Source: Cephalotus follicularis (taxonomy: Eukaryota > Streptophyta > Magnoliopsida > Oxalidales > Cephalotaceae). From it: a DNA stretch of 64,000 nt. Positions 253 through 59,888 of the stretch are shown piece after piece (the first letter of the stretch is position 1; the number at the start of each line of letters is the position of its first letter). A model generated the notes under the pieces. That model saw nothing but the letters and a program-made list of their open reading frames with translations. It was not told where the DNA came from and did not search any database. The position numbers were made by a program, and so were the translations under genes. The DNA is taken from the NCBI GenBank assembly GCA_001972305.1, contig BDDD01001509.1:124001-188000 (forward strand). Direction: 5' to 3'.

Positions 253-626
253 CTTTGATGTTAGTTTGAGATTTATAAAGGATTTTTGAATGTAATGAGG
301 CACAAAATCGCCAGAGACAGTGGGATTAGAGTTAGGGATTTGAGTTTTTGTGTGAAAATGGCTTGACAGACGGCGCTTTCTGTCTTAAAACTCAACTAAA
401 GCGTCGATGGAGTAGAGGGAGGCGTCGGTGCTTTGACTACTTTCCCTAATTCGATCCCTAATTTTTGTGTAAAGCGATGACGCTTTAATGACAGGCGTCG
501 GTGCTTTGCTCTATTTTCTGTCGATTTTTCGTAAACGCGCATGAATGAATGCAAATGATGTATTAATGAACAAACAAGCATATTGAGCAAACATATATTA
601 TCACACCAATCATATAAACATGTCAA
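253..626. other. Copia-1 3' spacer with phased palindromes
   Basis: Noncoding DNA between the pol stop and the extra ORF. It holds two pairs of TCGA-like cores flanked by GCG/CGC or GGCG arms: 404 and 425, and 477 and 498, each 21 bp apart. The 76-codon frame across 396-626 is a shadow of these repeats. Confidence 0.6.
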
Positions 627-1346
627 TCACTCAATTTCACACAGACCTAATTCCAATCTAAATTTTGAGAAGGTTTTTTCATCGAATGGTTTTGTGAAGA
701 TGTCCGCGACTTGTTCTTGAGTCGGGACGAAAACTAATTCAATATCACCTTTTTCTATGTGATCTTTTATGAAGTGATATCTTATGTCAATGTGTTTAGT
801 CCTAGAGTGATGAACCGGGTTTTTCCCTAAACATATCGCAGTAGTGTTATCACACCTAATTGGCACTTTTTCAAAGTTAAAGCCATAGTCAAGGAGTTGT
901 TGCTTCATCCACATGATTTGGGCGCAACAACTTCCCGTGGCAATGTATTCGGCTTCGGTAGTAGAAAGTGCTACCGAATTTTGTTTCTTGCTAAACCAAG
1001 AAATAAGCATATTGCCTAAAAATTGACACGTGCCACTCGTGCTTTTTCTATCTACTTTATATCCTCCGAAATCGGCATCGGAGTAAGTGTGTAAGTCAAA
1101 TGATGATTTCCTAGGATACAATAGTCCTAAGGAGGGTGTCTATGCTAAATACTTGAAGATTCTTTTTACGGCATGCAAATGGGATTCCTTAGGACATGCT
1201 TGTAATCTATCACATAAGCATACACTAAACAAAATGTCTGGCCTACTCGCCGTTAAGTAAAGCAATGAACCTATCATGCTTCTATACAATTTTTGATCAA
1301 TAGACTTACCTTGCTCATCTTTATCAAGTTTGGTAGTTGTACTCAT
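627..1346 (-). pseudogene. Copia-1 pol: end of RT connection and RNase H
   Basis: C-terminal pol of a copia element. The segment from 1346 holds [10 protein letters not shown] and SMIGSLLYL, then [12 protein letters not shown]. After one in-frame TAG near 1151 it continues with [14 protein letters not shown], the first RNase H acidic site, [11 protein letters not shown], the second, RCDNTTAICL, and [14 protein letters not shown]. It ends LGLCEIE with TGA at 629-627. RNase H removes the RNA strand after reverse transcription. The copia-2 pol matches along the whole length. The internal stop and the frameshift upstream make it non-functional as a polyprotein. Confidence 0.85.
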
Positions 1347-2401
1347 AGGGGTCTTACTCTTTTTGGCGTTCTACATCCCAAATCTTTTGAGTAAGTCCTT
1401 GACATACTTTGATTGGTTGATGAAGATTCCTTCCTCTAGTTGTTTGACTTGAAGTCCAAGGATTCTTCCTGCATGATCTTAGCGAAACTTTTGCACAAGT
1501 TTTTGTTAGTAGAACCAAAAATGATATCATCAACATAGACTTGAACAATTAAAATTTCTTTATTAATAGTTTTTGTGAAAAGGGTGATATCGATTGTTCC
1601 TCTTTTAAAGCCATTTTCGAGTAAATAGCCACTTAACTTTTCGTACCAAGCTCTAGGAGCTTGTTTCAAGACATATAATGCTTTTGAGAGTTTAAAGACA
1701 TGGCTGGGAAAATGAGGGTTTTCAAACCCGGGAGGTTGTTCCACATAAATTTCCTCCTTTATTACACCATTTAAGAATGCACTCTTTACATCCATTTGAA
1801 AGAGGGTGAAATCCTTAAATGATGCATATGCAAGTAACATACGTATAGATTCTAATCTAGCTACGGGTGCATACGACTCATCAAAGTCAATTCCCTCTTC
1901 TTGGGAATATCCCTTAGCAAGTAGCCTAGCTTTATTTCTAATTACAATGCCTTGGTCATCTACTTTATTACGAAATACCCATTTTGTGCCGATTATGTTT
2001 TGGTTACTAGGCCTACGAACTAGATTCCATACTTTATTTCTTTCGAATTGATTTAATTCCTCTTGCATAGCATTAATCCAATTTTCGTCTTTTTCAACCG
2101 CATTTATATTTTTAGGTTCTATTTGTGACAAGAATGCAATATAATTATGATTAACACTAGATCTAGTAGATACTCCTAGTCTAGAATTACCTATTATTGC
2201 TTCATGAGGGTGTCCTCTTACCACCTTCAAGGTTTTGTCGTGGAGAGCTTCGTGATAGCTTTCTTGAGAGGTTTCTTCTATAGTGGATTCCTCCTTTTTG
2301 GTTTCATCTAGATTTAGCATGTTAACTCCATTTTCAATAAAATCTACACAATCATCATCAATAACTTCTTTTGGAAGTTTAGGGTTAGTTTCATCAAATA
2401 T
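1347..2401 (-). pseudogene. Copia-1 pol: reverse transcriptase
   Basis: Open from the solo LTR edge at 2401 to about 1436 and then in another frame to 1347. Visible landmarks in order are [68 protein letters not shown] (family Gly changed to Val), and the catalytic YVDDIIFGS. The following part ([25 protein letters not shown]) is shifted in frame near 1436 and again near 1365. This is the RVT_2 type of RT found in copia elements. Residues at its N-terminal edge join across the inserted LTR to the integrase end at 4448. Confidence 0.85.
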
Positions 2402-4447
2402 TGTAACACCCCGCACCCGCAAAGCGGACACGTGGCATTACTCTCAGTCCAATACACAATACAATGGTCGGGACTAGCAACATAAAAATGCGAAAAACTT
2501 TAAAACTTTGCGATACATATCAGTTACGGAAGATACAATACAATTCCATCCATACAATACAAATCCTTTATAATACTAGTCTTTTCAATACATTAACAAT
2601 CCTTTAAACAACATTACAACACAATACATTTCCATATTTCACTACAATATCTCTATCAGCTTCACAAACCCAAGGAGTCGTGCGGTCAACGGGTCTTCAG
2701 TCCTTCAGTCCACTGCTACTTGCTGCCCTACCTATGCCGCACACAAAGGTACAACACAGCTCCACCCCGAAGGATGGGGTTAGCCATACTGGCTAAGCAG
2801 AAACCCCATGCAGCATGTATGCATGTACAATGTGCAATATCGGTGACAATCTATACAATATCAATGTGCGGTGTACAATATTAATGCATGACATGGAAAA
2901 TGTATATGTACAATTGGCGATCAGACTACCCGTATGACAGTGGCTCATAACAGAGCATACGAAGAGGATCTATAACAATCAATCAATGGCAGACACTCAA
3001 TGGTGGTGTATGAAACACCCAATTAATCAATTAATCAATCAATTAATATCCTATAGAGCGTGCGACTGATGTCAATTCAATATAAATCAGTTAGCAGTGA
3101 TCAATCCCACGGAAGGTAGTCCTTCGAAAAGGGTGGGAGATCTACCTACGGTTCTCAGACTGATCAGGTCTGGAACACATAGATCTTCCAGCCTATGGCT
3201 GAGCAATACAATCTCGATGAGCTACAGTTGAGGGAGCTACTGATGCCGTTAGGGAGCTACGGCCCTCAGCGAGCGTCAATCGTCAATCAATCGTGCTCGT
3301 CAGAAAGACAATACAATAAAAGAAACGGTCGACGGAATAGGTGGACAAGGTCAACCTAACATGCCGATGTAAAGCACAAGGTCGCTCTATAGGATCCATA
3401 CAATACAATTAATCATTCAATCGAGTCAATACAACATTAAGTAAAGTCAATAAGTGGTGGTGTCTAATGGAGAAATGGGAACGTGCGTCCATCTTACCGA
3501 CTTAGACTCACAACAACACTCACGACTCAAGCAATCGATCAATGTATTAATACAACGTCGAAGCAAGACCGATAAATGGTGGTGCCTAATGGAGGGAAGG
3601 AAACGTGCATCCATTTTACCGACTTAGACTCATAACAACACTCACGACTCAAGCAATCAATCAATTAATACAATCATTAAAATTGTTTTCAAACACTTGA
3701 ACACCTCAAGTGAGGCTCTAGCCAAGTGGCAAGGTGAAAAGAGGTTGAAAACCAGCTTTAAAACAGTTAAAACCTCCTTTCAGTACATTAGGCATCGATG
3801 TCTTTGGTGAAAGACATTGACTCCTCTTTAAAACGGTGGAAAGACGTCGATGTCTTTAAAAGACATCGATGTATTTCCATATTTGTATGGAGATCTGGCC
3901 GAAGACGTCGATGCCCTTGGAGAAAGGCGTCGACGTCTTTTAATAAAAATAGCCTGAGAATGCGCATCGATGTTCGGTATCGATGTCTTTCCAGGGGAGA
4001 GACATCTATAGGCAAAGACGTTGACGCCTTTGAAAGACGTCGATGTCTTTGCTACAGAATCAAGGATAAAGCACTCATATGAGAAAGACATCGACGCCTT
4101 TGGGCTAAGGGTCGATGTCTTTTCCGGGCAAGGTCGATTTTTATGCAGAAAATGACCAATCTCAAGTTAAAATCCAATTTAAAGCCATTCTTTGAAAACC
4201 AAAGTTTACAATCGATCATTTGAGGTTAGTAAGACTAGTTACAACCTTCCAAATTCAATTTCAATCTAGTCGATTCGATCAACTCTCCGAAACTCGGTCC
4301 AAAATCCCGACTATACATGCATATGATCAATACAATATCAATAGGTATAAGAATACCTCAATTCAATACAGTTCAGTATGGTCCAATAAGGTACAATACG
4401 GTACGATGTATGCATGAACAGTACAAAAGGGAATTCGGGTCGTCACA
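2402..4447 (-). mobile_element. Solo LTR of the gypsy-1 family inside copia-1 pol
   Basis: Begins TGTAACACCCCG and ends GGGTCGTCACA on the plus strand, the same ends as the gypsy-1 LTRs, so the LTR sense strand is minus. There is no gag or pol between the ends. At 2046 bp it is shorter than its relative at 27434-30103 (2670 bp), so it has internal deletions. Flanking 5-mers are AATAT and AAGCA and do not form a clear duplication, so one edge may be eroded. Bases 3795-4120 hold pairs of TCGA-core palindromes, for example 3795/3817, 3847/3866 and 3908/3930. Confidence 0.8.
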
Positions 4448-5716: not shown

Positions 5717-5717
5717 T

Positions 5718-7123: not shown

Positions 7124-7130
7124 AGAGAGA

Positions 7131-8135
7131 GAGTTAGAGAGTTTGCAAACACGGTTTTTAGAGTGGTTCGGCGTAACTCTTGCCTACGTCCACTTTTCCC
7201 AAGGATCTCCTTGAGTTTCCACTAGTCTCCGAATACAATTCCGGGTGCTATTCGGTACACCTTTGTGATTGACCTAAATCATTTACAACTCTCTTTGGGT
7301 TCACTCCCCAATTTCTTTTAGAGTTTGCTCCCCTATTACAATCAAAGTAGATAGAATAATGTTTCATTCTAAACCTCTCAAAAGGTTGGATTTTACAAGA
7401 TCAAATCGCTCAATTTTAGTGGGAACAAATATAGGCTAAAATATAAGACAAAAGCTTTTGAGATGAACTTTGATGATCTTTTGCTTAATTGATCTTTTTA
7501 TATTTTGTGTTCTTCTTCTTGTTTTTCTTCAAAAACCTTTGTATATAGCCGTTTGTTGCCTGAGAGATCTGTTGGGTATGTCTTGAAACTTGTTGCATAA
7601 AAAACGGCGCATTAAAACTCTGTCAGAATTTTTCTAGCTATGCAAAGCGTCGACTGTCTCCCTCAAAGCGTCGCCGCTTATATGACCGTTAGGTATTTTA
7701 TTTTGAATTTGTCAAGTCAAAAAGCAGGCGTTCTGGATGTAGGAGTCGACTGTTGCCTCAAAGCGCTGACGCTTAGTGTTGAGTGTCGTCGCTTGTGTCA
7801 AATTGATTGGATCCAAGAAGTCTCTATTTCTAGGCGCTGACTTGAGGTCTCAAAGCGCTGACGCTCTAAATTAAAGCGCAAACGCTTCTAATTAGGCATC
7901 GACGATTTAAACATTTGTTCCTCTCCTCCATACGCTTCAACGGTTGACGCTTTGTTCATTGTCTCGACTGCTGCACAAAGCGCTGACGCTTTATTTCTGA
8001 GCGTCGACGCTTTATCCTGTTTCTGCAGTTTTTCTTGCTGTTTTGCGCATTCCATGTTTTTCTTGCACATAAAGAAACTTGGTTAAACACAAATATGTTA
8101 TCATCAAAACTAGGATTTAGACATAAATGTCAACA
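7131..8135 (-). mobile_element. Copia-1 5' LTR
   Basis: Sense strand is minus and starts TGTTGACATTTATG at 8135. The first 60 bases resemble the copia-2 LTR start. The end region carries a GTGGACGTAGGC block and a CCGAACCACT block, like other plant copia LTR tails, and passes directly into gag near 7131. Bases 7650-8010 hold a dense array of GCG-TCGA-CGC type cores at 7650, 7671, 7746, 7766, 7786, 7837, 7858, 7879, 7899, 7944, 7964, 7983 and 8004, with steps of 19-21 bp inside each run. Small frames here are shadows. Confidence 0.75.
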
Positions 8136-12865: not shown

Positions 12866-15314
12866 GGTAACACCCCGCGCCCGGAGGACGGACACTTGGC
12901 ATCACTCTCAATCCAATATACAATACAATGGTCGGGACTAGCAATATAAAAATGCGAAAAACTAAAAGCTTTACAATACATGTCATGTGTGGAAGATATA
13001 ATGCAATATTCCATCCATGCGATACCATACAATACAAATTCGGTTACAATACTGTGCTAGTCATTTCATTACAATACATTTCAGTACAATACTCGTCATC
13101 AGTCTCATCAAGACAATCTACAATACAAGCTTTGCCATATCAAAACGGTCATGCGGTCGCACCGAATCTTCAATCCTTCTGTCCGCTGCTACCTGCTGCC
13201 CTACCTATGCCGCATGCAAAATGTACAACACAGCCCCACCCCGAAAGATGGGGTTAGCCACAAGGCTAAGCAGAAATCCCATGCAACATGTATGCATGTA
13301 CAATGTGCAAAATCGGTGACAATCTATGCAATATCAATGTGCTGTGTACAATATCGATGCATGATATGGAAAATGCATGAATACAATTGGCGATCTGAGT
13401 ATCCATATGACATTGGCTCATAACAGAGCATATGAATAGGATCTATAACAATCAATCAATAGCAGACACTCGGTGGTGGTGTATATAACACCCAATCAAT
13501 CAATCATATCCTATAGAGCATGAGACCTCGGGTCAGTACAATGTCAATCAATGGTAATGATCAATCCCACGGAAGGTAGTCCCTCAAAAAAGGTGGGAGA
13601 TCTATCTACTGTTATTAGACTGATCAGGTCCAGAACTCGTAGATCTTCTAGCCTATGGCTGGGTCAATACAGTCTCGATGAGCTACAACCGAGGGAGCTA
13701 CTATGCTGTCAGGGAGCTACAGCCCTCAAGGGAGCATCAATCGTCAATCAATCAATATGCTCAACAGCAAGACAATACAATAAATGAAACGATCGACGGA
13801 ATAGGTGGATAGAGTCAACAACCTACCTAACATGCTGACATGAATTATAAGGTCGCTCTATAGGATCCATACAATACAATCAATATGTCAGTTCAATGCC
13901 AGTAAGTGGTGATGTCTAATGGAGAAATGAGAATGTGCGTTCAACGTTCTGAACTTAGACTCACAACACTTATGACTCAAACAAACAATCAATCAATCAA
14001 TAGCCAATAGACGGTGACAATCAAATAATGAGATAGGAAAGAACATTTATCCAGTCAAAGAAGGTCACTGGGTCGTCGCCTATGGCTCAAGATGTCACTT
14101 TATCAATATATCAATTCAAGATTTGAAAACCATGAAAAACTGTGGTCTAAAATGCTTGAATACCTCAAGTGAGGCTCCAGTCAAGCGGCAATGTGAAAAG
14201 AAGTTGAAAACCAACTTTAAATTAGCTAAAAGTTCCATTCAGCCCGTTAGGCGTCGATGTCCTTGGCCAAAGACATCGATGCGTATCAGGGCATCCTTTT
14301 AAAATGGTGGAAAGACATCGACGTCTTTGAAAGACATCGATGTGTATCTCTATTTTTATAGAGATCTGGCCGAAAGACATCGATGTCCTTGGACAAAGAC
14401 GTTGACGCGTTTCATTATAATTAGCCTGGGAATGTGCATCGATGTTCAGCATCGATGTCTTCTCTAGGGAGAAGAAATTCCAAGGCAAAAACGTCGATGT
14501 CTTTCAAAGACGTCGATGTCTTTGCTGTGAAATCAAAGATGCTGCATTCTAAAGCAAAAGACATCGATGTCCATGGGCTGGGGATCAATGTCTTTGTTGG
14601 GCAGGGTCAATTTTTGTGCAGAAAATAGCTGATCTTAGGTCAAAATCCAATTTAAAGCCATTATTTTAAAACTAAGGGTTAAAATCGCTCTTTTAAGGTT
14701 AGTAAAATTTGTTACAATCTTTAAATATCAGTTTCAATCTTTCTAGATTAGCTAGATCAAGGGAATCAATAAAAACCCTAGTTTCACAATTCAATACAAT
14801 ACAATCATTCAATCAATCATGCAATTCAATCAATCAGTCAATTAAGCAATAGACAATACAAGTAGAGAAGTTCTACCTATAATAGAAGCTTCAACAGTTG
14901 AGCTAACGATCGATCAAAGGCCGGAAACACTCAAGAATCGGCTACTATGTTGTTCAATCTGCAAGAAGGAGACTTGCAATTGCTATATTTGTTGATGGAT
15001 AAGACAAATCCAGAGCTGCTAGAGGGTGAGGGAGGCTGCCGGCTGGGAGAGAGAAGAGGAGAAGGATAGGGAGAGGGAGAAGAATGAGAAATGAGAGAAT
15101 GAGAGTAAATAATTGACTTATACAGTCAATTCTTTCGATTCTCCGAAACTCAACCCAAAAACCCAATTATACGTGCATATAATCAAAACAATAACAATAG
15201 GTATAGGAATACCTCAATTCCATACATTACAATACAGTTCAATACGGTACAATACAGTACAGTATATGCATGAACAATGTTCAACAGTACAAAAAGAGAA
15301 TTCGGATCGTTACA
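12866..15314 (-). mobile_element. Gypsy-1 3' LTR
   Basis: 2449 bp. The sense strand starts TGTAACGATCCG at 15314 and ends at 12866, where the terminal CA is now CC. Paired TCGA-like cores lie at 14254/14276, 14318/14337, 14380/14402, 14439/14452, 14494/14513 and 14564/14585. The TATA-like site near 15117-15126 is altered to TATACA on the plus strand. Frames such as 14222-14488 follow the palindromes and are not genes. Confidence 0.85.
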
Positions 15315-15330
15315 TTCTCCCCTCCTTAAA
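15315..15330 (-). other. Gypsy-1 polypurine tract
   Basis: On the minus strand the purine run AAGGAGGGGAGAA directly abuts the LTR start TGTAAC. It primes plus-strand DNA synthesis in this class. Confidence 0.8.
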
Positions 15331-22501: not shown

Positions 22502-24894
22502 TGTAACACCCCGCACCTGGAGGAGGGACACGTGATATCACTCTCAATCACATATAAAATACAATGGTCAGGACAAGCAATATAAAAATGCGAGAAACTA
22601 AAAACTTCACAATACATGTCATGTGTGGAAGATACAATGCAATATTCCATCCATGCGATACCATACAATACAAATTCGGTTACAATACTGTGCTAGTCAT
22701 TTCATTACAATACATTCTCAGCACAATACTCGTCATCAGTCTCATCAGTACATTCTACAAAACAAGCTTTGTTATATCAAAACGGTCATGCGGTCGCACT
22801 GAATCATCAATCCTTATGTCCGCTGCTACCTGCTGCCCTACCTATGCCACACACAAAATGTACAACACAGCCCCACCCCAAAGGACGGGGTTAGCCACAA
22901 GGCTAAGCAGAAACCCCATGCAGCATGCATGCATGTACAATGTGTAAAATTGGTGACAATCTATGCAATATCAATGTGCGGTGTACAATATCGATGCATG
23001 ATATGGCAAATGCATGAATACAATTGGGGATCTGACTATCCATATGACACTGGCCCATAATAGAGCATATGAATAGGATCTATAACAATCAATCAGTAGT
23101 AGACACTCGGTGGTGGTGTATAAAACACCCAATAAATCAATCATATCCTATATAGCATGCGACCTCGGGTCAGTACAATGTCAATCAATGGTAATCATCA
23201 ATCCCACGGAAGGTAGTCCTTCAAAAAAGGTGGGAGATCAATCTACTGTTATCAGAATGATCAGGTCCATAACTCATAGATCTTCTAGCCTATTGCTGGG
23301 TCAATACAGTCTCGATGAGCTACTATCGAGGGAGCTACGGCCCTCAAGGGAGCATCAATCGTCAATCAATCAATATGCTCAATAGTAAGACAATACAATA
23401 AATGAAACGATCGACGGAATAGGTGAACAGAGTCAACAACCTAACATGCTGACAAGAATCATAAGGTTGATCTATAGGATCCATACAATACAATCAATCT
23501 GTCAGTACAATGCCAATAAGTGGTGATGTCTAATGGAGAAATGGGAATGTGCGTTCAATGTTCTGAACTTAGACTCATAACACTTATGACTCACTCAAAC
23601 AAACAAACAATCAATCAATAGCCAATAGATGGTGACAATCAAATAACTAGATACGAAAGAACATTTATCCAGTCAAAGAAGGTCACTGGGTCGTCGCCTA
23701 TGGCTCAAGTTATCACTTTATCAATCTACCAATTCAATCTTTGAAAATCATGGAAAATTGTGGTCTAAAATGCTTGAATACCTAAGATGAGGCTCCGGTC
23801 AAGCGGCAATGTGAAAAGAAGTTCAAGACCAACTTTAAAATAGCTAAAAGTTCCATTCAGCCCGTTAGGCGTCGATGTCCTTGGCCAAAGACATCGATGC
23901 GTATCAGGGCATCCTTTTAAAACGGTGGAAAGACATTGACGTCTTTGAAAGACATCGATGTCTTTCTCTATTTTTATAGAGATCTGATGGAAAGACGTCG
24001 ATGTCCTTGGACAAAGACGTTGACGCGTTTCATTAAAATTAGCCTGGGAATGTGCATCAATGTTCAGCATCGATGTCTTCTCTGGGGATAAGAAATTCCA
24101 AGGCAAAGACGTCGATGTCTTTGCTGCGGAATCAAAGATGCTGCATTCTAAAGCAGAAGACGTCAATGTCCATGGTCTGGGGATCGATGTCTTTACTGGA
24201 CAGGGTCGATTTTTGTTCAGAAAACATCCGATCTCAGGTCAAATCCAATTTAAAGTCATTCTTTGAAAACTAAGTATTAAAATCAGTCTTTTAAGGTTAG
24301 TAAAACTTGTCACAACCTTTAAATATCAGTTTCAATCTTCCTAGATCAACTATATCAAGGGAATCAATAAAAAACCTAGTTTCACAATTCAATACAATAC
24401 AATCAATCGTGCAATTCAATCAATCAGTCAATTAAGCAATAGACAATACAAGTAGAGAAGTTCTACCTATAATCGAAGCTTCAAAGGTTGAGCTAACGAT
24501 CGATGAAAGGCTGAAAGCACTCAAGAATTGGCTGCTATGTTGTTCAATCCGCAAGAAGGAGACTTGCAGTTGCTATCTTTGTTGATGGAGAAGACAAATC
24601 CGGAGCTGCTAGAGGGTGAGGGAGGCTGCCGGCTGGGAGATAGAGGTGGAGAAGAATAGAGAGAGGGAGAAGAATGAGAAATGAGAGAATGAGAGTAAAT
24701 AATTGACTTATATAGTCAATTTTGTCAATTCTCCGAAACTCAGCCCAAAAACCCGACTATACATGCATATAATCAAAACAGTAACAATAGGTATAGGAAT
24801 ACCTCAATTCAATACAGTAAAATACAGTTTAATACGATACAGTATATGCAAGAACAGTGTTCAACAGTACAAAAAGGGAATTCGGGTCATTACA
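22502..24894 (-). mobile_element. Gypsy-1 5' LTR
   Basis: 2393 bp, starting TGTAATGACCCG on the minus strand at 24894 and ending GGGGTGTTACA. It matches the other LTR at 12866-15314 with many single-base differences and small indels, so the insertion is not recent. Paired palindromes lie in 23870-24200. Like its partner it contains only shadow frames. Confidence 0.85.
24707..24716 (-). promoter_or_regulatory. TATA box of gypsy-1 5' LTR
   Basis: TATATAAG on the minus strand, bracketed by TTGACT and AGTCAA, so W-box-like TTGAC cores lie on both sides. The same arrangement is at 29917-29926 in the solo LTR. It sits about 180 bp inside the LTR sense start, an unusually early position. Confidence 0.45.
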
Positions 24895-24899
24895 GTTTG

Positions 24900-34207: not shown

Positions 34208-34210
34208 AAG

Positions 34211-34222
34211 TGGTATCAGAGC
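34211..34222 (+). other. Primer binding site, tRNA-Met
   Basis: TGGTATCAGAGC three bases after the 5' LTR, complementary to initiator tRNA-Met. Confidence 0.9.
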
Positions 34223-35897: not shown

Positions 35898-37177
35898 TGT
35901 AACGCCCGGGATTTTTGTTAAGGTGTAATATTGCATTTTTTTTAATGTAATTTTATACGTGGAATTAATGAGAATTGTGTTTCTCCCCCTTGGTGTGATA
36001 AAAGTTGCAAGAAAAAGTGTGTTAGTGTGCTTTTGGTGCAGGGGGCAGCCGACTGCCACAGGGAGGCAGCCGACTGGACTCCCCTGGTGAAGGCGGCAGC
36101 CGACTGTTGTGAGGAAACAGCCGACTGTTTTGAGTGTCGGCAGAAACAGTCGACTGCCAAGTGAAGGCAGTCGACTGTCAGGCGCCAGACGCCCACGTGT
36201 TTTCAGCCTTTAAAAGAGAAAAATGGGATGTTTTGGCATTTTGTGGACATGGCAGAGAAAGGGGCCGGGTCTCCTTGATAAAAACGCAAGCTTCTCTTCT
36301 CCAATCTCCATTCTTCCTCTGTGTGTTTGGGAGTAAAGAGAGTGGAGTGAAAGTGTGTGTGTTGTGAAGATACAGAGCTTCGTGTTGAACCGTGGCTTGG
36401 AGGCTCGGACCAGCGGAGGAATCGGACCGTGGGAGGCTGCTGGACGTGTTTGGAGATGCAAGGACCTCGGATCTAGGACTTAAAGAAGTGGATTGCAACT
36501 CCTAACTTGGAGTTCTAAGGTAGGGGAAAGCTATATTTGTGATTCAAAGTCATTTATAATGATGTTATGGGTGATATGCATATGTGATATTGTGATAGAA
36601 GCCTGAATATGTGTTGTGGTGATAGTGTTTTATGGTTGAAATGGTTGAAATGTTGATTGAAGTGTGTGTTGTGCTGCTGTTTTTGGGCACTGCCCGTGGG
36701 GGCAGTCGACTGTCCAGGGAGGACAGCCGACTGTCCAAGGCTGGCAATTGACTGTTTTGGATAACAGCCGACTGTACAGGGATAACAGCCGACTGGGCAC
36801 TGGAGCCAGTCGACTGGTTGCACCTGGAATTGCAGGTTCTTCCTGTTGTTTGTGGAGTCGACTGCCAAGGAAGGCAACCGACTGTGTGGTGGTCCAGCCG
36901 ACTGTTTTGGGTGACAGCCGACTGGCCACGTGTCACTCTCCCGGGCATGCTGGGACTTCACGCTCCGTTTGAGGGCAGTTAACTGTGATGATGTTTTCTG
37001 TTGTAGCATGTAGTATGGGATGCATGCTATGTTATGTTTCGGCTTATTCTATATGCTTCCGCAGGTTGTTGATGGATATGGAAAGTTTTAAATTTTATGG
37101 TTTTTTTTTTTGCATAAGCCGGATTTATTTGTTTAATTGCCTCCACTTATATGTTGGTTGCGAAGCGGGGTATGACA
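35898..37177 (+). mobile_element. 3' LTR of gag-only element
   Basis: 1280 bp, TGTAACGCCCGGG to GGGGTATGACA. Nearly identical to the 5' LTR except that about 36749-36957 is replaced by a different block that is dense in CAGYCGACTG palindromes spaced 20-21 bp. Confidence 0.85.
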
Positions 37178-37182
37178 AGGTC

Positions 37183-37955: not shown

Positions 37956-38862
37956 TGTTGACGATTTAGTCTCAATCCTAGTTTTGATGATAACATATTT
38001 TCATTTAACAAGTTTACTTAATGTGCAAGATGTTAGAAAGAATCACAAAAGGCAAAAGACAGTTGCATACCAAAAGACATCGATCCCTATTGAAAAAGAC
38101 ATCGACGTCTTAAAGTTACCAAAGTTACAGGCCACTTTTGGAGAAAGACATCGATCCCTTTCAAGAAAGACATCGACGTCTTTAGTGCACCAAAGTTACA
38201 GGTCGAATTTGAGAAAAGACATCGATCCTTATAGGCAAAGACATCGATGTCCATACAAAAGACATCAATCCCTTTCAAGAAGACATCGAAGTCTTGAGCT
38301 ACCAGAGTTACAGGTCAATTTTTAGTGAAGACATCGATCCTTGGATGTGAAGACATCGATGTCCAACAAAAGACATCGATCCCTTTCCTCAGACATCGAC
38401 GTCCTTCTAGACTCAACTGCAAAATCCAGAAAAGACATCGATCCTTGAAGAAGAAGTCGATGTGATGCTCATAACTTCAAATTCCTGGATACATTCCCAG
38501 AAACGACATCGACGCCTATAAAAGACATCGACGTCTTTTCAAATTTTTTGACCCGGGAATTAAGCAACGGCTAGTAAACCCACCTGCAATGGCTAGTAAC
38601 AGTCAAAGACGTCGACGCCTTTCAAAAGACATCGACGTCTTTATCTCAGCAGGCACAAAAACAGAGTTGCATCAACACATTTTGATATCTTAAATTCCCA
38701 AGATTTATGCAACGGCTACAAAGACTTTTTTGTCTATATAAAGGAAGATTCAAAAACAACAAGGACAACAATACAACAACAAGAGAGACATCAATTCAAG
38801 CATTCTAGTTCCAAAAAGCTCAAGTGCTCTATAGTGTTCTCAAAAAGCTTCAAAGCTTTATC
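37956..38862 (+). mobile_element. Copia-2 5' LTR
   Basis: Starts TGTTGACGATTTAG. Holds phased TCGA-like cores at 38080/38102, 38151/38173, the run 38203-38222-38244-38265-38286, the run 38315-38334-38356-38376-38396, 38438/38457, 38509/38528 and 38612/38632. Arms are AAAGACA and TGTC/CGTCTTT. It stops at GCTTTATC, where gag coding sequence begins without a CA end or primer site. Confidence 0.85.
38734..38744 (+). promoter_or_regulatory. TATA box of copia-2 5' LTR
   Basis: CTATATAAAGG, about 100 bp after the last palindrome pair. Identical at 46588-46598 in the 3' LTR. The palindromes therefore lie upstream of the likely promoter, in U3. Confidence 0.6.
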
Positions 38863-43351: not shown

Positions 43352-43905
43352 ATGTTTATTTGTTTGAATGATTTGATCAATTGTATGTTTTTAATGTGAT
43401 GATTGATTTTTGGTTATTGTTCTATTTTGTTTGTTATTCTTCTGTTTTTATAAAATCACGTCGACTTCTTTTCAAAAACTTTGATGTATTTTTTTGCAAA
43501 AACGTCGATCTCTTTCATAAAATGTCGATTTCTTTAAGTCTCTCTGAAACACGTCAACTTCTTTAAAAACACGTCGATGCCTTTTAAAATGCAGCGTTTT
43601 CTAGATCGATGCCTTTCGTTTTTTAAAAGAACGCGTCGACGTCGTTGGAATAACATCGACGTCTTTTACCTGATATCCACTTTTTCATAAAAACGTCGAC
43701 TCCATACTCATCTCTCACTTTAACCTTACACTGGACATTTCGAAAAAAAATTTCTCTCTGATTTTTTAACAAAAATCGTTCTAATCGTTCTAAAAACATC
43801 TACTCCATCATCTTTCGTTCTCAAAAATCATATTTCCCTCTTTCAATCCGATTATTTTTCTCACTCTCTGTTCATATCTGTTGTGCATACCAACTGTTTG
43901 ATAAA
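43352..43905 (+). other. Copia-2 spacer after pol, with TCGA palindromes
   Basis: No gene. AT-rich, with TCGA-like cores at 43461/43481, 43505/43525 and others to about 43690, spacing 20 bp. The matching spacer of copia-1 (253-626) also has such pairs. Confidence 0.65.
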
Positions 43906-45809: not shown

Positions 45810-46716
45810 TGTTGACGATTTAGTCTCAATCCTAGTTTTGATGATAACATATTTGCATTTAACAAGTTTACTTAATGTGCAATATGTTAGAAAGAATCAC
45901 AAAAGGCAAAAGACAGTTGCATACCAAAAGACATCGATCCCTATTGCAAAAGACATCGACGTCTTAAAGTTACCAAAGTTACAGGCCACTTTTGAAGAAA
46001 GACATCGATCCCTTTCAATAAAGTCATCGACGTCTTTAGTGCACCAAAGTTACAGGTCGAATTTGAGAAAAGACATCGATCCTTATAGGCAAAGACATCG
46101 ACGTCCAAACAAAAGATATCGATCCCTTTCAAGAAGACAGCGACGTCTTGAGCTACCAGAGTTACAGGTCAATTTTTAGTGAAGACATTGATCCTTGGAT
46201 GTGAAGACATCGACGTCCAACAAAAGACATCGATCCCTTTCCTCAGACATCGTCGTCTTTCTAGACTCAATTGCAAAATCCAGAAAAGACATCGATCCTT
46301 AAAGAAGAAGTCGATGTGATTCTCATAACTTCAAATGCCTGGATACATTCCCAGAAAAGACATTGACGCCTATAAAAGACATCGACGTCTTTTCAAATTG
46401 TTTGACCCGGGAACTAAGCAACGGCTAGTAAACCCACTTGCAACGGCTAGTAATAGTCAAAGACATCGACGCCTTTCAAAAGATATCGACGTCTTTATCT
46501 CAGCAGGCACAAAAACAGAGTTGCATCAACACATTTTGATATCTTAAATTCCCAAGATTTATGCAACGGCTACAAAGACTTTTTTGTCTATATAAAGGAA
46601 GATTCAAAAACAACAAGGACAACAATACAACAACAAGAGAGACATCAATTCAAGCATTCTAGTTCCAAAAAGCTCAAGTGCTCTATAGTGTTCTCAAAAA
46701 GCTTCAAAGCTTTATC
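45810..46716 (+). mobile_element. Copia-2 3' LTR
   Basis: TGTTGACGATTTAG to GCTTTATC, 907 bp, same palindrome layout and TATA box as the 5' LTR. The exact end is unclear because a typical CA end with duplication is not seen; CA dinucleotides follow at 46718 and 46723. Confidence 0.85.
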
Positions 46717-47743: not shown

Positions 47744-49268
47744 TGTTAGATATAGTGACCCGACAAGCCATTAGATGGGTTGTCATATTATATCTTGCCA
47801 TGTATGGAACAATCTTATTCTTATGTATATATGATGCGTGCTAAATTTGTTATGGCTATATCACTTGTATTTTATCACATAATTGAAGTAGTTTAATTAT
47901 TACCTACTTATACTAGTGATGCCCTGACATAAGGTTGGATGCCTCCAAAGGTCCTAGTAATGATCAGATATTTTAGCCATTGAGGTACTATCTAGGGTTG
48001 ACACATATCCTTACCCTAGACCTCAATCGGGGCCAAATATGACAAGGGATTATAGTACACGTGAACCGACGACTTAGAAAATCTAGGGTTGATGAGGTGT
48101 GTAATAAATTATGGGAAAATTAATTAGATTAAATTTTTCCATGTGGATAATATTAGAAATTATTCAGATAGCATTTAAATGGTCTGGGATCATTTAGAAT
48201 GGCTAAACCGAACCCTAGGGGTATTTCGGTAATTTGTGAACACCTCTCGATCTAACCAAGATTTTAAAGGGTCACTGCCTTATAATGATTAGATCTTTAA
48301 TATGTTGGACATATTAAGTCTTGGTGTCAAATATCGGTTGTGTGGATTTTACATTTTGTGGAAACACATATGTTTGATCTTACTTAACCAATATTCGAAG
48401 GATACACGAGATCACTTAAAGAGTTAGACTATTTATGCTTGACTGGACAAAAGGCGTCGATGTCTTTTATAAAGACGTCGATGCTTTTCTCTGATAAAGA
48501 CGTCGATGTCTTTTAGAAAGCATCGATGTGCTTTAGTGCCACGTTGCATAGGCGTCGACGTCTTTCGGAAGGCGTCGACGTCTTTCGGAAGGCGTCGACG
48601 TCTTTGAGCAGAACGTGTAACCTATGCACGACCGCAAATCGTGGGCACTACTTCTCTCACGTCCTTAGCCGGTTTCTCTCTATTCTACACGTTTTAGAAA
48701 CATGGGAATCATGGCTTCGGACTCCCAGGGAGTGAAGGCCATGATCTTAAGTGAATGAGAGATTGGGAGAGAGAATTGTAGGCTGGTTATAAGTATTTCT
48801 GCAGAAAATGGAAAAGTAAAGGGAGAGACATTTTTTGCTGGGCAATTGACCTCGAATTCTTCTCTGCAAGTGTGTGTTCCTTCATCAGATAAACACCAAG
48901 CAAAGGCTTATCTAGGGTGGATTGATTATTGACTTCATTGGTCATAATCAATACTCCTTCTCTAAGCTAAGTGAGAGAGAGAGTGAGTTCAAGCACTTTG
49001 ATTTTGCTGGTTGGATTACTTGGTGTTCCTGAGTCTTGGAGAAGATCAAAGGGATTCTACTCAAGCTTGTAGCGGCAAAGAACGAAGGAGCCAACACCCA
49101 CTGGTATAAATTCTTGGTCCTTCTTCCTTATGCCATGCTTGTGTGTCACCATTGTTTGCAATGGTGACACTAATTCAATTCTGTTGATGTTGTGGTGATC
49201 CATGTGGTCTATGGACGTGCCATAATGGAATGGTACTTACTGAAAACTTCATATTTCTGCTTCCAACA
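47744..49268. mobile_element. Unassigned LTR with TG...CA ends
   Basis: Starts TGTTAGATATAG and ends TTCCAACA, a short terminal inversion typical of LTRs, 1525 bp. The right flank is decayed gypsy-3 RT; the left flank is unrelated, so a simple solo LTR with duplication is not shown. Phased TCGA cores lie at 48457/48478, 48503/48523 and 48555-48575-48595. No coding sequence. Confidence 0.5.
48551..48600. repeat. Three 20-bp tandem palindrome repeats
   Basis: GGCGTCGACGTCTTTCGGAA repeated, with cores at 48555, 48575 and 48595. Confidence 0.85.
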
Positions 49269-49275
49269 TTGGTCT

Positions 49276-51672: not shown

Positions 51673-53909
51673 TGCAGCACCCCCGATCCGAGCCCACTTT
51701 AAGCTCAAAGCGAGCTCCGAAGATCGGTGCGTTACGTGGGGTGAAACCTTAATCATCAAATCGTTTAATCATTTAACGATCCATTTCATATCATTTAATC
51801 TCAACTTAGATTTAAAATCTAACATCATTACTTAATAACTTCACAGGATCACATATGCTTACATCTTTGAAACACCAATTTCAAAATATCATATTCTCAT
51901 TATCATGATCGTTTCTAATACCTTACATTTATACATCACTTGACATGTAACCTTACACAGCGGAAAAACATAAACTTATCTTATCATAAAAATAATCATA
52001 TACTCACCTTTATCATTAACATCTCATACACTCAAGTATGTTCAATAACTTTTCATATCGTCATCTTACACAAAAACATCATAACCTATAGCATTCATTA
52101 CCTTACCTTAACATCTACACACCGTCTATCATAAAACATTGCACAGCGGAAAACATACACATATGACATAAAACATAACTTCATAGCATATACTTCCTTT
52201 CCTTACTCTTCTTTTGCGAACTTCCTCTAAAGCTCGCAACTTCACGTTCAACATTTCCTGGAAGATTTGTTTGAAAACAAGACATTGAAAGGAGTGAGCT
52301 TTTAAGAGCCCAGTAAGAATCATAGTCATAAAACGTTATCGAAATCCGTTATTTTTAATAATCTTTATCAAAACGTTTCAACATCATACATTTCATAATA
52401 TCTTTGAAAACCATCTTCTAGTTTTATAAAAACCAGAACATTTCTGAAATCATACATTTTCTGGTATATATAACCAGTGTACTTGAAAACAATCAAAAAC
52501 ATTTTCCATAACTCAAATGCATTCATAAAACGTTTCTCTTCATTTGAGTAGTTAACTCAAATGCATTCATAAAATCATTTTATAAAATCTTTCTTAATAC
52601 CTTGAGTGATCAGCCCAAAGCATTCATAAAACATCATTGTAAATCTTTTCTAAAACTGGTTTCTCATGTGGAAACCTTCATTTCATTTCATTTCACAATC
52701 ATAAAACATTTCTCATCACTTTGAGTAATTAACTCAAAATCCTTTAGAAAACAGTTTGCGCAACTTTACGAAAACGGATAATTCATATATAAATAAGCAT
52801 TTTCAGACAAAACTCAAAACATAAAAATTAAATTATACATCTTGAAGATTTCAGAAAGCTCAAGATCATAACAATTGGTTGAGAATTGAATCCTCTATGA
52901 ATTTTTGAAAGTGGCTGGTTTCATAAGAAAACAAGACATGAGCAGTAGAAGAAAACATAGCTTTTCATCAAGAATTCGACAGAATCTAGAGATGCATAAA
53001 ACATAACAGTTAAAGTAGAAATCTTGAGGTTTTCAAAACATTAAACCATTTGAAATTTCATCAAGAACTCAGCAAGATATGAATTAAAGTATCTGCTGCA
53101 TAATTTTGAATCAAAACAGTGGAATAACTTGATAAAATGGGTATGGAATCTCCTTACCTCACTTGATCTCCTTCTCTTCTTCTCTCCCAAGAAATCTCCC
53201 TCTTCAACTCAGCAGAAACAAGCCTTTTGTTCAGCTAACAAGGCACACATATATAAAGGGGAAGAGAAACTTGGAGGCTAAGCTTGGATGGTGTCATCCA
53301 TGACCTCACCCATGTGAGCTTGTCTCCATGTGATGAAATTAAACCAATTCAGCTGATGCCACCTGCCCTATAGTAGCAAAATATCATAATTCATCCATTC
53401 CTTGCTTGACACGTGCCCTAAAAACCATTTAAATCCTCCAAAATGGGATAAAAGCTAGAATTATGCATCTGACACAGGGCAAAGCGTCGACTCTTTACCT
53501 CTAAGCGTCGGCTCCTAAGGGTTTTACCTGAGTTTTTCACCTCTATCCCGACTAAAGCGCTGACGCTTTATTACAAAGCGTCGACGCTTTAAGTCTCCTC
53601 CAGGTCAATCCTCAACATTTGATCTCGAAGTGTCGACTTTTACATTCTAGGCGTCGACCGTTACTACCAAAGCGTCGGCGCTTTAAGTGTAACTGTCGGC
53701 GCTTTAGACAGTTTTCCTTCTCATCACTTAGCTAAAAAAATTTCTTCTAGGGGCACTGCCCCCTGAACCCCCGCCCGTTGTCCGGTGAGCGGAACCCCCG
53801 TACTCCCCGAGCGTAGGGTCATACTACGGGTCCCTTAAACTATTTTCCAATTACACAATAGCAATCATTTCCATAATTAATATATTTACTGGAAATTCGG
53901 GTCATCACA
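51673..53909 (-). mobile_element. Gypsy-3 5' LTR
   Basis: 2237 bp, plus-strand ends TGCAGCACCCCC and TTCGGGTCATCACA; the latter end resembles the gypsy-1 family. TCGA-like cores with GCG/CGC arms at 53487/53508, 53560/53581, 53633/53654 and 53675/53696, each exactly 21 bp. AT-rich, no credible ORF. Confidence 0.75.
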
Positions 53910-54440: not shown

Positions 54441-54444
54441 TTAG

Positions 54445-54902: not shown

Positions 54903-57112
54903 TCCCATCAAACTCATCTTCCAAAATCAACCGAAAGAAGGTCGAAGAAGAAGGAAGCAAACAAAAAAGTTAAGTTTGGTTTGAGTTGATGTTGACAATT
55001 GTAACGCTCCGAAATGACCCCTACTACCTTTAGCCTATATTACATCATGTTGTCATGGAATATAGATATTATGAAAATGATTGTGCATGTGGTTATGACA
55101 TGGATTGGGGTATTTAATCCCATATGGATTGATAAGTGTTTATACGAAATGTTTTGATGTGATTGAGGCATTAATTGCCCATATTTGAGCATATACCTGC
55201 ATATGCATGTTTTAGAGATGTTTAAATGTTTTATGTGCATACATGAGGGATGATATGGCAGCAGTTAGTTGCATATGACAGATGTGAGCATTTTAAGTTA
55301 AAGAGAGAAAACCGAGAAAACCTATAAATAGAAGTTTAATTCCTATTTTCATTTGATTCTCACAAAAGCTCTCTCTCTACTTCTCTCTCTTACCTGCCCC
55401 CGCCCTCTCTCTCTAGCCATACCTTCTCCAAATCTTGAAAACTTGGAACCCAAATGATCGTGAGAATAATAGGAAGTTGATAGAAGCTAGAGACTTGAGT
55501 CTCTCCTCCACTATCAGATAGATTCACTGATTGAAACTCCAAGGTGTTTAGGTAAAAAATTTCTCCACCTAAAATGCATTTGGAATGATTTATTTCTTTA
55601 TGATATGCATGATTGTAGTGCCTTGATGAGCACTTGAGTATGTATGTGATATGATCAATTAGAACGGATTAAAATGAGTTTTTCTTTGAAAATGGACTTT
55701 TAGATCTATTTCATCCCTTTTCAGAACTAGTGACCTTCTAACATTCCAAATAACTTGATCTCTTGATATGTCACCCTTAGACATGTCTAGATCTTGTCCC
55801 TTAAGTTTCATGTCAAAAAGATTTGAGGAAGAGGGTCAAAACCCTAAGTTAGCTCAGATTTAGCTAACTTGTAAACCTTATGTCCAGTCTAGATGACTAA
55901 TAGTCGACTAGAATGATCATGCTAGTTGACTAATGCTTCATTAGTTGCCTAATGACCTCATATCAGTCGACTAATAGTCGACTGGTCTGATGCTTTTCAC
56001 CCAAAAAGTGTTGTTTTTCAATGTTTTCTCAAACAACTTTTAATGGGAGTCTTCCAAGGCTCAAATGATAGCATTTTAAACATGTTTTTGACATACTTTG
56101 ATATGTTTAACAAACATTTTGACAAATTGGATAAAAGGATTTTGAAATGTAAAGTTTTATGGAGGTTTTCTCCGAAGTAACTCGTTTGAGACCTTTCTCT
56201 TGTTTCTCTCAAACGATCTTCTTCAAGACCCTCCTAGGAGTGAATTTAACCTATGTAAATATACTTTTCATTGAGTGATTGATTCTTTAAATTGTTTTCT
56301 ATAGTGGCTTGGTAAAGAATAAAGAGAGAAATTCATATATGTGTTCACCATAGAGTGAACGGTAACTACTAGCCAGGTATGAGGCGTCGTTCTATGGTCG
56401 GTTGAGCCCTTTGCTAGAGTTATTCATAGTACGTGTTTAGCTGAGTTTTGTGATTAACCTTAGAGCTGTGTGTCACCTTTGAGAAGTTTGATGTCATCAT
56501 CCTAGAGCTACGTTCCACCTTTGGGGGACTTGAGACTCACGCTAGCTGCTATCGATGGATCGATAGACGACTAGTTGTCTGATCCTTGAGTTGAGAGCCA
56601 TCTTGAAAAGGTGATATTTAGACTTATGTACAACCCTAGCGATGTGTGCCACCTTTGAGAGGGTCTATACTAATGTGTATACATAAGCTCTATAACTAAC
56701 CTTAAAGCTATGTGCCACGTTCGAGAGGTTAGATGTCCTCGTCCTAGAGCTGTGTGCCACATTTGAGGGACTTGAGACTATGTTGAGCTATTGAATACTT
56801 TTTTATCCAATGACTTGACTTGTATGGATCTTTAGCTAGTTGAGTACCTCTAGGTCTACCTGTAGGCGACTAGTTCTAGTTGGACCTATCACTCTCTTCC
56901 TCCCTCTATCACATCTCTCTCTCTATTAACAAACCATTAAACAACCACAAATACCAATACCCAAAATAAAACCAAATACCTAAATCCAACTCTCACCTGT
57001 ACCTCACACCAATCACTAACCTCACTTTTCACCCTCAAACTAGATCAACCGACAAAACATCAAAAACACCCAACCCTCACAAAGCCACTTCACCCAAATA
57101 TTCATCACCCAA
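54903..57112 (+). repeat. First copy of a 2.2-kb tandem duplication, truncated LTR
   Basis: A flank of about 97 bp ending GAGTTGATGTTGAC is followed by an LTR-like sequence starting TGTAACGCTCCG at 55000 and running to about 56888, where it departs from copy two; then 224 bp of C/A-rich DNA. Flank and LTR both recur at 57113 onward. AGTCGACT-type cores at 55893, 55904, 55926, 55945, 55967 and 55978 have spacings of 11 and 22 bp. Confidence 0.65.
56461..56800. repeat. Reiterated GAGCTGTGTGCCACC blocks
   Basis: About five diverged copies of CTAGAGCTGTGTGCCACCTT plus a GAGAGG or GGGGAC tail, at roughly 45-110 bp steps. The same series is in the second LTR copy at 58661-58980, with a further block near 59130. 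Confidence 0.6.
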
Positions 57113-57209
57113 ACACATCAAACTCATATTCCAATATCAACCAAGAGAAGGTTGAAGAAGAAGAAAGCAAACAAAAAAGTGAAGTTTGGGTGGAGTTGAT
57201 GTTGACCGT

Positions 57210-59888
57210 TGTAACACCCCAAAATGATCCCTACTAGCTTTAGCATATATTACATCATATTTTTACGGCATAAAGATCTTATGGAAATGATTGTCCATGT
57301 GGTTATGACATGGATTGGGGTATTTAATACCCATATTGATTGATAAGTGTTTATACGAAATGTTCTGTGGTGACTGGGGTATTAACTGCATGTATTTGAG
57401 CATATAATCACATATGCATGTTTTAGAGATGTTTAAATATTTTATGTGCATACATGAGGGATGATATGGGAGTAGTTAGTTGCATATGAGAGATGTGAGC
57501 GTTTTGAGTTTCAGAGAAAAAATTGAGAAAACCTATAAATAGAAGCTTAATTCCTATTTTCATTTCATTCTCACAAAATCTCTTTCTCTACTTCTCTCTC
57601 TTACCCACATCCATCCTCTCTCTATAGCCACACCTTCTCAAAATCTTGCAAACTTGGAACCCAAATGATCATGGGAATAAGAGATACTTGATAGAAGCTA
57701 GAGACTTGAGTCTCTCCTCCTCTATCTGATAGATTCATCGATTGAACCTCCAAGGTGTTTAGGTAAGAAATTTCTCTACCTAAAATGCATTTGGAATGAT
57801 TTATTGCTTTATGATATGCATGGATTGTAGTGCCTTGATGATCACTTGAGTATGTATGTGATATGATCGATTAAAGCGATTAAAATGAGTTTTCCTTTAA
57901 AAATGGACTTTTAGATCTATTTCATCCCTTTTCAGATCTAGTGAACTTATAACACTCCAAATGACTTTATCTCTTGATATGTCACCCTTAGACATGTCTA
58001 GATCTTGTCCCTTAAGTTTCGTTTCAAACGGATTTGAGGAAGAGGGTCAAAACCCTAAGTTATCTTAGATTCAGCTAACTTGTAAACCTTCTGTCCAGTC
58101 CAATCGACTAATAGTTGACTAGAATGAGAATTTTAGTCGACTAATGCTTCATTAGTTGTCTAATGACCTCATTTCAGTCGACTAATAGTCGGTTGATCTG
58201 TGGTTTTCACTCAAAAAGAGCTGTTTTTACATGTTTTCTCAAACGAATTTCAATGGGAGTTTTCTAAGGCTCAAATGATAGTATTATTAAACATGTTTTG
58301 ACATGCTTTGATATGTTTAACAAATATTTTGACCAATTGGATAAAAGGGTTTTGAAATGTAAAGTTTTGCAGAGTTCTCCGAAGTAACTCGTTTGAGACA
58401 TTTCTCTTGTTTCTTTCAAACGATTTTCTTCAAGAGCCCCCTAAGAGTGAATTTAACCTATGTAAATATACTTTACATTGAGTGATTGATTCTTTAAATT
58501 ATTTTCTATAATGGCTTCGTAAAGAATAGAGAGAGTCATAGATGTGTTCACCATAGAGCGAACAGTAACTACTAGTCAGGTATGAAGTGTCGATCTACAG
58601 TTGGCTGAGCCATCTGCTAGAGTTATTCATAGTACATGTTTAGTCGAGCTTCGTGATTGACCTTAGACCTGTGTGTCACCCTTGAGAGGTTAGATGTACT
58701 CGTCCTAGAGCTATGTGCCACCTTTGGGGGACTTGAGACTCACGTTAGCTATCTATGGATCGATAAACAATTAGTTGTCTGATCCTTGAGCTAAGAGCCA
58801 TCCTGAAAAGGTGAGATTTAGATTTATGTGTAACCCTAGAGCTGTGTGCCACCTTCGTGAGGGTTTATACTAATGTGTACAGAAAAGCTTTGTAACTAAC
58901 ATTAGAGTTGTGTGCCACCTTCGAGAGGTTAGATGTCCTCGTCCTAGAGCTGTGTGCCACATTTGGGGTATTTGAGACTACGTTGAGCTATTGAAGGCTT
59001 TTGTATGCTATGACTTGACTTGTGTGGATGTTTAACTAGTTGAGTATCTATAAGTCTACCTGTAGGCGACTAGTTCTAGTTGGACCTATTACTCTTTACA
59101 GTAGACAACTAGATGTTCTAAACCCTAGAGCTGCATGCTGTCCTGAAAAGTTGGGTTTAGACTTACGAATACTGTATGTTAGGTTAATCACTTATATATA
59201 CTAGTATGAGATATTTTATATATGTAGTTAACCTTATTATTGTATGATAGATTGTTTGGATAGGAAAGTATGTATAGGTTAACAAATTATGTATATACCA
59301 GTATGGGACGGTCATATACATGATTTGGTTAACTGCCATTATCATGCATCATACCATGACATACTTATAACTATGATAGTTGTTCATGCATGCCATGGAT
59401 ATACTATTATGATTGTGCATCCATTCTTTATGCATGGGGTCACGTTCTGCTTGGTCGTACGGGTAATCCATCCTTTGGGATAAGGCACCTATTGTGTTCA
59501 GGTACGGATAGATCAGGGGCCAGTGGAAATGGCCAAGGACATAGAGATCAATGACAACAAGATGCACAGAGCATGGATGTTTTACGTTATGGTTTTATTG
59601 TACGGATTGTATGAGATGATATGGATTATGTTAAGAGTGAACTTGTATTGTAATAAAAAGGCAAGCACTGAATATTTATGGATTGTAAGGATTATGAAAT
59701 TAGTATGATATAAAATCGTAAAGTATTGATGTTTAAGTATGGTTGAATGGACAAGCCCATATGTAATGTTAAAGTTATTATGGTTTTTTTGCTGTATAGA
59801 ATAGACTTACCTAGTACCCAACTCATGAATTAAGAGACCGAACGGGTGTTAGTGATGTCTCGGATCCCCTATGGTTCGGGGTGTTACA
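57210..59888. mobile_element. Gypsy-type solo LTR, second copy
   Basis: 2679 bp starting TGTAACACCCC and ending GGGGTGTTACA, a perfect 11-bp terminal inversion. No coding internal part. Flanks ACCGT and ACAGC match only partly. Contains the TCGA core region (about 58100-58200) and the GAGCTGTGTGCCACC reiterations. Small frames at 59289-59708 show no recognisable product. Confidence 0.65.

Follow-up and report, generated by a model that had tools for sequence, protein, structure and literature searches.

In the VANDAL/VANC anti-silencing system of Arabidopsis, short target motifs have multiplied in the non-coding regions of mobile elements and form lineage-specific dialects; those elements are DNA transposons that supply their own VANC, while for the arrays described here a protein is only proposed. 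We analyzed a 64-kb stretch of the Cephalotus follicularis genome (contig BDDD01001509.1, positions 124,001 to 188,000; hereafter the window), which is a nest of long terminal repeat (LTR) retrotransposons and their fragments. Its copia and gypsy elements carry arrays of short palindromic boxes with an RTCGAY core, spaced at ~21 bp from centre to centre. We lean towards reading them as cis-regulatory operator arrays, that is, as predicted dyad sites of a dimeric DNA-binding protein that would bind cooperatively on one face of the helix.

The closest described system is the palindromic repeated-motif (RM) boxes of Sireviruses. According to the accessible sections of Bousios et al. 2010 (PMC2829016), RM boxes occur in 13 Sireviruses, each of which carries 8-32 copies; these precede the TATA box within the LTR and, in env-bearing elements, are also found upstream of env. 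The same sections give a CGG-CCG core for all RMs but that of Tnd-1 and a TCGA centre for two of the 13, the Vitis motif CGGTCGACCG and the Tnd-1 motif ACAATCGATTGT; they call the RM Sirevirus-specific against classic Ty1/copia, gypsy elements not being among those compared. In the available parts of two further reports (PMC10760457, PMC5311732), the palindromes CACCGGACNNNGTCCGGTG of maize Sirevirus LTRs form clusters in the cis-regulatory region of these copia LTRs. Since the first of these (PMC10760457, in part) also places the maize palindrome in Helitrons, sharing across element classes has a precedent.

The Cephalotus boxes resemble the RM boxes, as described in those sections of PMC2829016, in being high-copy palindromic dyads that lie in the LTR and again before env. 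They differ from them in that their RTCGAY core lacks CGG-CCG (Tnd-1 being the published exception), in that the arrays are also found in gypsy LTRs and are not confined to Sireviruses, and in that they hold a helical spacing. The maize palindromes have a core unlike that of Cephalotus, and neither gypsy sharing nor a helical register is reported for them in the available parts of PMC10760457 and PMC5311732. Nor is either property of LTR palindromes reported in the accessible text of the remaining literature searched (PMC2820488, PMC5738225, PMC11963269, PMC6911290, PMC10794571), a search outside which most subscription journals lie. As far as we searched, the boxes in Ty3/gypsy LTRs, the dialects common to two superfamilies without other detectable LTR similarity, and the helical register are new, and they extend to other element families a palindromic LTR box type so far known mainly from one retrotransposon genus. 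An earlier note made from the letters of this window (the original prediction) had stated that no element of this form was described; the RM boxes published in 2010, with their two TCGA centres (PMC2829016, accessible sections), contradict that statement.

Box sequences and dialects

The boxes belong to four dialects, D1 to D4, which are 18, 16, 14 and 14 bp long, respectively. D1 (AAAGRCRTCGAYGYCTTT) is found 61 times in the window at up to two mismatches versus 0.0 in 10 shuffles; D2 (AAAGCGTCGACGCTTT), which is D1 minus one base per arm, 8 times versus 0.0; and D3 (GRCAGYCGRCTGYC) 19 times versus 0.5. D4 (ATTAGTCGACTAAT) is found 5 times versus 0.1 at the same threshold, and 11 times versus 3.9 at three mismatches. 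With regard to the single host factor that the original prediction considered, the different arms of the four dialects suggest several specificities or a variable recogniser.

Palindromes with a TCGA core (9-bp arms, at least 8 matches) number 17 in the window, whereas 20 dinucleotide shuffles give a mean of 0.2 and a maximum of 1. Twenty 10-kb stretches taken arbitrarily from the genome hold 39 palindromes with this core, versus 1.4 in five shuffles; AT-repeat cores are also enriched in them (ATAT, 61 versus 10.6; TATA, 58 versus 8.4). Among palindromic hexamers in 220 kb of sampled genome, RTCGAY forms 55 pairs at 19-22 bp, while each of eight other classes forms 0-4. Exact boxes were further counted in the whole Cephalotus follicularis assembly (1.577 Gb; host order Oxalidales), where the counts take in many copies of the same families: AAAGACRTCGAYGTCTTT occurs 51,413 times (control 187), AAAGCGTCGACGCTTT 3,552 times (control 5) and GGCAGTCGACTGCC 8,918 times (control 21). 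In viral contigs the exact D1 box was found in three stretches, the viewed regions of which hold single boxes in unrelated sequence, and a Sirevirus reverse transcriptase piece had no relative among these contigs. A box-pair pattern was found in one stretch of the prokaryote genomes, an Arthrobacter record.

The TCGA-core palindromes listed in the original prediction are real. Of 41 cores taken from it, 24 are TCGA, 34 are YCGR and 35 are no more than 1 bp away from a box scored at up to four mismatches for D1 and D2, three for D4 and two for D3; only 21 of the 41 are palindromic at six or more of eight positions. The cores at 7837, 7964, 33084, 53508, 53633 and 53654 do not score as boxes. 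A cluster placed near 55000 without positions corresponds to an array at 55905-55979, of which another copy lies at 58138-58179. Arrays near 3.8, 23.9, 29, 36, 43.5, 46 and 58 kb had been missed.

Position of the arrays within elements

The following arrays and array-bearing repeats were identified in the window (coordinates, strand where assigned, description):

404..508, minus strand: linker array 3' of pol in copia-1 (Sirevirus-type); D2, gaps of 21, 52 and 21 bp
2399..4447, minus strand: gypsyA-family LTR copy alone inside copia-1; D1 array at 3788-4122
7643..8013, minus strand: copia-1 5' LTR array; D2; TATA-like match at 7542, ~109 bp beyond the last box in the element direction
12867..15316, minus strand: gypsyA 3' LTR; D1 array at 14246-14574
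22502..24897, minus strand: gypsyA 5' LTR, 90% identical to the LTR at 12867..15316; D1 array at 23864-24194
27431..30106, minus strand: fourth gypsyA-family LTR copy; D1 array at 29043-29380
32883..34211, plus strand: LTR of a gag-only element (gag at 34865-35632, plus strand); D3 array (GGCAGTCGACTGCC)
35898..37181, plus strand: second LTR of the same element; D3 array at 36043-36926
37956..38862, plus strand: copia-2 (Sirevirus) 5' LTR, aligned extent; D1 array at 38072-38642
43453..43706, plus strand: copia-2 linker array from pol to the env-like open reading frame (ORF); degenerate D1 (1-4 mismatches), 9 boxes with gaps of 20, 24, 20, 29, 20, 62, 20 and 40 bp
45810..46716, plus strand: copia-2 3' LTR (aligned part); 17-box D1 array at 45926-46496; TATA-like match at 46588
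48449..48605: D1 array of an unassigned element; includes a 20-bp tandem (2.8 copies)
53480..53705: D2 array of a probable gypsy-3 LTR, for which the gag evidence is weak
55898..55986: D4 array (TTAGTCGACTAA-like) in the first of two 2-kb direct repeats
58131..58186: D4 array in the second of these repeats

At up to two mismatches, all boxes (93/93) lie in LTRs or in the pol-env linker, and the 21.2 kb of coding sequence is free of them, which agrees with the restriction to LTRs and 3' spacers that had been claimed. At the loosest cut-off the same is true of 137 of 140 boxes; a single D4 match in copia-2 pol is probably due to chance, and two boxes are located elsewhere. The LTR and linker intervals were drawn by hand, and those of the 48-kb element, the copia-1 linker and the gypsy-3 LTR were drawn with the arrays already known; therefore the absence of boxes from coding sequence is the stronger half of the position claim.

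The copia-2 boxes occupy both LTRs and are found again between pol and env, where nine of them (43462-43697) precede the env-like ORF. The copy number in LTRs is high, with 17 boxes in the copia-2 3' LTR and 9 in the copia-1 LTR (up to four mismatches), and a TATA-like match is located ~100 bp past the array in both elements, but further such matches fall inside arrays. Arrays were also observed in a genome sample of 35 stretches (260 kb, contigs C3-C957), picked by contig number and position regardless of content, 18 of which contain an array or a 19-22 bp pair. D1 arrays lie 5' of gypsy gag at five sampled loci (L009, L019, L021, L024 and L038), of which L024 also has copia coding sequence nearby; an array is located between copia pol and env-like coding sequence at L022; and a single 20-bp pair occurs amid gypsy coding sequence at L012.

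Centre spacing and helical register

The window spacing set comprises nine non-redundant arrays with adjacent gaps of up to 120 bp. More than half of these gaps (38/67) measure 19-22 bp, so the two-turn register proposed earlier is borne out. The mean centre spacing is 20.75 bp for D1 (n=24, range 19-25), 20.88 bp for D2 (n=8), 20.80 bp for D3 (n=5) and 21.00 bp for D4 (n=3). The spacing of ~21 bp is thus constant across boxes of 14-18 bp, and therefore the linkers stretch from 2.75 to 7 bp; linker sequences differ between arrays and within most arrays. Simple packing of boxes was considered and rejected, because the centre spacing does not follow box length.

Longer gaps in the window cluster near 30, 42, 51 and 72 bp. 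For the 28 gaps of at least 24 bp the best period is 10.45 bp (R 0.496, jitter p 0.006-0.008); p is 0.014-0.019 with stricter box cut-offs and 0.002-0.029 with any one array left out. Odd-turn spacing rests on small samples, with four window gaps at 29-32 bp and five at 49-52 bp.

The 260-kb sample contains 55 segments with at least two RTCGAY sites, which form 26 sequence families. When one segment per family is counted, the in-phase bins 19-22, 29-32, 40-43, 50-53, 60-63, 71-74 and 81-84 bp hold 23, 1, 12, 4, 8, 6 and 5 pairs, respectively, and the off-phase bins between them hold 0, 2, 2, 0, 2 and 0. With one array per family and lags of 24-84 bp, R at 10.5 bp reaches 0.396, and the jitter p of 2.5e-4 is the lowest value that the test can return; lags of 24-58 bp give p 0.013, and the adjacent gaps of at least 24 bp (n=38) give a Rayleigh p of 0.004.

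Genome-wide, we counted the pair pattern TCGAY-N-RTCGA in three ranges of centre spacing. Pairs at 19-22 bp number 491,450, against 19,966 in the control; the corresponding figures are 28,642 and 19,539 for 24-27 bp, and 202,028 and 14,457 for 40-43 bp, the last peak holding triplets of 21-bp steps. As with the exact boxes, families present in many copies contribute repeatedly to these counts. The first 100 listed places at 19-22 bp are divided into 10, 27, 50 and 13 at 19, 20, 21 and 22 bp. The peak that the original prediction expected from a genome scan is therefore present. A single satellite as its source was rejected on account of the four dialects and the 26 sequence families of the sample, with the qualification that the largest family accounts for 21 of the 55 segments.

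A doublet of GAGTCGACTC with 13-bp spacing, off the helical register, was seen in three of the twenty 10-kb samples (L015, 6530-6543; L017, 3438-3451; L022, 5533-5546).

Sharing between copia and gypsy elements

D1 is common to copia-2 and gypsyA, and D2 to copia-1 and the probable gypsy-3, in line with the sharing between the two superfamilies that had been noticed in the window. Before masking, copia and gypsy LTRs or linkers have matches of 38-46 bp. When the boxes are masked, no copia-gypsy LTR similarity is left in the window at E<=1e-3, and the LTRs of copia-1 and copia-2 retain a match of 39 bp. Sharing is limited to the boxes, and the dialect does not follow phylogeny. The masked comparison speaks against exchange of whole U3 modules, which the original prediction had offered as one explanation.

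Conservation of boxes and linkers

Among four LTR copies of gypsyA, box identity is 82-96% and linker identity 70-92%, with boxes higher in 6/6 pairs, in box columns that were picked by consensus match, which favours conserved sites. Indels per 100 bp range from 0 to 1.0 within boxes and from 0.7 to 3.9 within linkers, the boxes having fewer in 5/6 pairs, and identity outside the array is 77-92%. The central CG is kept in 77 of 90 D1 boxes, and the left and the right CG in 32 each; this retention is suggestive only, because the consensus permits outer changes freely and LTR copies repeat.

The aligned D1 boxes at 3848 and 14319 (ACGTCGATGT and ACATCGACGT) are exact reverse complements, which may reflect box inversion or two CpG decays.

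Proposed regulatory role and alternative explanations

In the operator reading, each box, with its RTCGAY core and dialect-specific arms, would be the dyad-symmetric site of one dimer; it is the dyad that suggests a dimer. With boxes two helix turns apart and others about three, four, five or seven turns away, the dimers would be placed on one DNA face, and this shared face suggests dimer-dimer contact. Promoter control is suggested by the location of the arrays in the LTR and before env: same-face dimers would act cooperatively on the LTR promoter, possibly to activate or to silence it, and in Sirevirus copies would also act at a second site upstream of env. The copia and gypsy elements would have reached the same few dialects via selection by the same host factors and not by whole-U3 copying.

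Several observations weigh against this reading. Off-phase gaps of 24, 25, 45 and 62 bp exist in the window. In the 260-kb sample, the 29-32 bp spacing is rare (the one pair noted above), the best-fitting period is 9.0-10.05 bp and not 10.5 bp, and the off-phase bins 45-48 and 65-68 bp contain 12 and 16 pairs when redundant segments are kept. The 10.5-bp phasing is absent from the first 200 kb at lags of 24-130 bp in the redundant set (R 0.09, best period 9.05 bp); phasing is thus clear to ~80 bp at most. Since the genome-wide peak at 40-43 bp holds triplets of 21-bp steps, it cannot distinguish helical phasing from a unit of 21 bp. Besides the manner in which the box columns were picked, one gypsyA pair (A3k-D27k) is more similar outside the array (85.5%) than in its boxes (81.8%). 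Each strand of the window has 13 matches to the TATA-like pattern, which is also present within the copia-2 and gypsyA arrays. Finally, we know of no factor that fits all dialects; DRE-like, W-box-like and bZIP-like partial matches are confined to single dialects.

Alternatively, the boxes could act as RNA, with adjacent palindromes forming hairpins that are diced to small RNAs, a process that has been proposed for the maize Sirevirus palindromes, either as a silencing target or as a retained by-product. All four box segments tested fold better than their shuffles (z -2.5 to -6.5), and small-RNA hotspots are described on maize Sirevirus palindromes in the accessible parts of PMC10760457 and PMC5311732. 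Hairpins, however, do not explain why boxes of three lengths keep a single centre spacing or why non-adjacent boxes are phased, and several D1 linkers of 1-2 nt are too short to loop between two full boxes, so we consider this explanation unlikely.

Neutral minisatellite growth would require no binding: a 21-bp unit would duplicate by slippage or hairpin-assisted replication and spread with the elements. Duplication does feed the arrays, as follows from the perfect 20-bp tandem at 48550-48605 and from repeats of 71 and 112 bp that the copia-2 LTRs contain, and the strong even-turn peaks (19-22 and 40-43 bp) fit such growth. Nevertheless, it appears improbable as the whole explanation in view of four dialects of differing length with one spacing and differing linkers, boxes that outlast linkers, arrays in equivalent places of unrelated elements, and the odd-turn window gaps (29-32 and 49-52 bp), which are not multiples of 21.

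Exchange of a U3 block between copia and gypsy elements, through template switching or nested recombination, would account for the occurrence of D1 in copia-2 and gypsyA and of D2 in copia-1 and the probable gypsy-3, if the event was so ancient that all flanks have eroded. It is weakened by the lack of masked copia-gypsy similarity, whereas the pair of Sirevirus-type LTRs keeps its 39 bp, and we regard it as quite unlikely. Periods of ~10 bp are typical of signals for nucleosomes. That the period seen here helps to position nucleosomes or to bend DNA, and does not serve a specific factor, is nevertheless very improbable, as bending needs neither long sequence-specific dyads nor dialects and none of the eight other hexamer classes has a comparable peak.

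Returning to the operator reading, it can be speculated, more tentatively, that a small family of dimeric host proteins with a fixed RTCGAY contact and differing arms binds the approximately half a million phased box pairs and controls both LTR superfamilies. In such a family plants would have their own version of a genome-wide system for recognizing retroelements, and the dialects would be a record of long co-evolution. A box code that is shared by copia and gypsy elements of one genome and keeps to a helical register points to a single machinery, regulatory or silencing, that acts on both, and hundreds of thousands of sites in the same register make a very strong target for pull-down or footprinting, which would give a direct handle on the predicted protein.

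Elements of the window

Copia-2 was classified as a Sirevirus based on an RVT_2 pol (Pfam matches), an env-like ORF, and multiple polypurine tracts (five GGGGGAG copies at 45442-45801), the last of which abuts TGTTG. The primer-binding site TATCAGAGC and the polyC integrase signal were not found in copia-2, the 5' LTR end and leader of which are missing and the 3' LTR end of which was not located. Its 5' LTR breaks off at 38863 and passes directly into gag, with the LTR end, primer site and leader lost, while the 3' LTR continues. The env-like ORF (43762-45243) consists of two in-frame pieces with one stop between them, both with Transposase_32 similarity under the Pfam cut-off; the matches listed for the piece at 44371-45243 (120 of 440) are Cephalotus follicularis proteins with 61-91% identity. 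Copia-1 is called Sirevirus-type because its coding DNA is 68-76% identical to that of copia-2; no polypurine tract of the copia-2 type was found in it.

GypsyA is a Ty3/gypsy element with 2.4-kb LTRs and two extra LTR copies of the same family in the window. Its coding region has Retrotrans_gag, gypsy RNase H and H2C2 integrase matches in Pfam, which detected no chromodomain; any Tekay label is thus tentative. The gypsyA-family LTR at 2399-4447 interrupts copia-1 pol and has no internal region, and is a probable solo LTR. The short element at 32883-37181, with LTRs 97.6-97.8% alike and gag (Retrotrans_gag, zinc knuckles) as its sole ORF, is a recent gag-only gypsy element that is probably non-autonomous. 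The gypsy-3 gag fragment at 50571-50882 (minus strand) is a weak match (E 0.0014) below Pfam's cut-off.

The region 54906-59095 consists of two 2-kb direct repeats that are 88% identical and 220 bp apart, and their aligned borders lack TG..CA. An Rfam search of the window gave no match. Arrays of ~29-bp repeats with GCGGAATTCACCC are located at 8355-8547 and 16341-16645; the two places are 86% alike and represent a separate repeat-rich non-coding module that is unrelated to the palindromic boxes.

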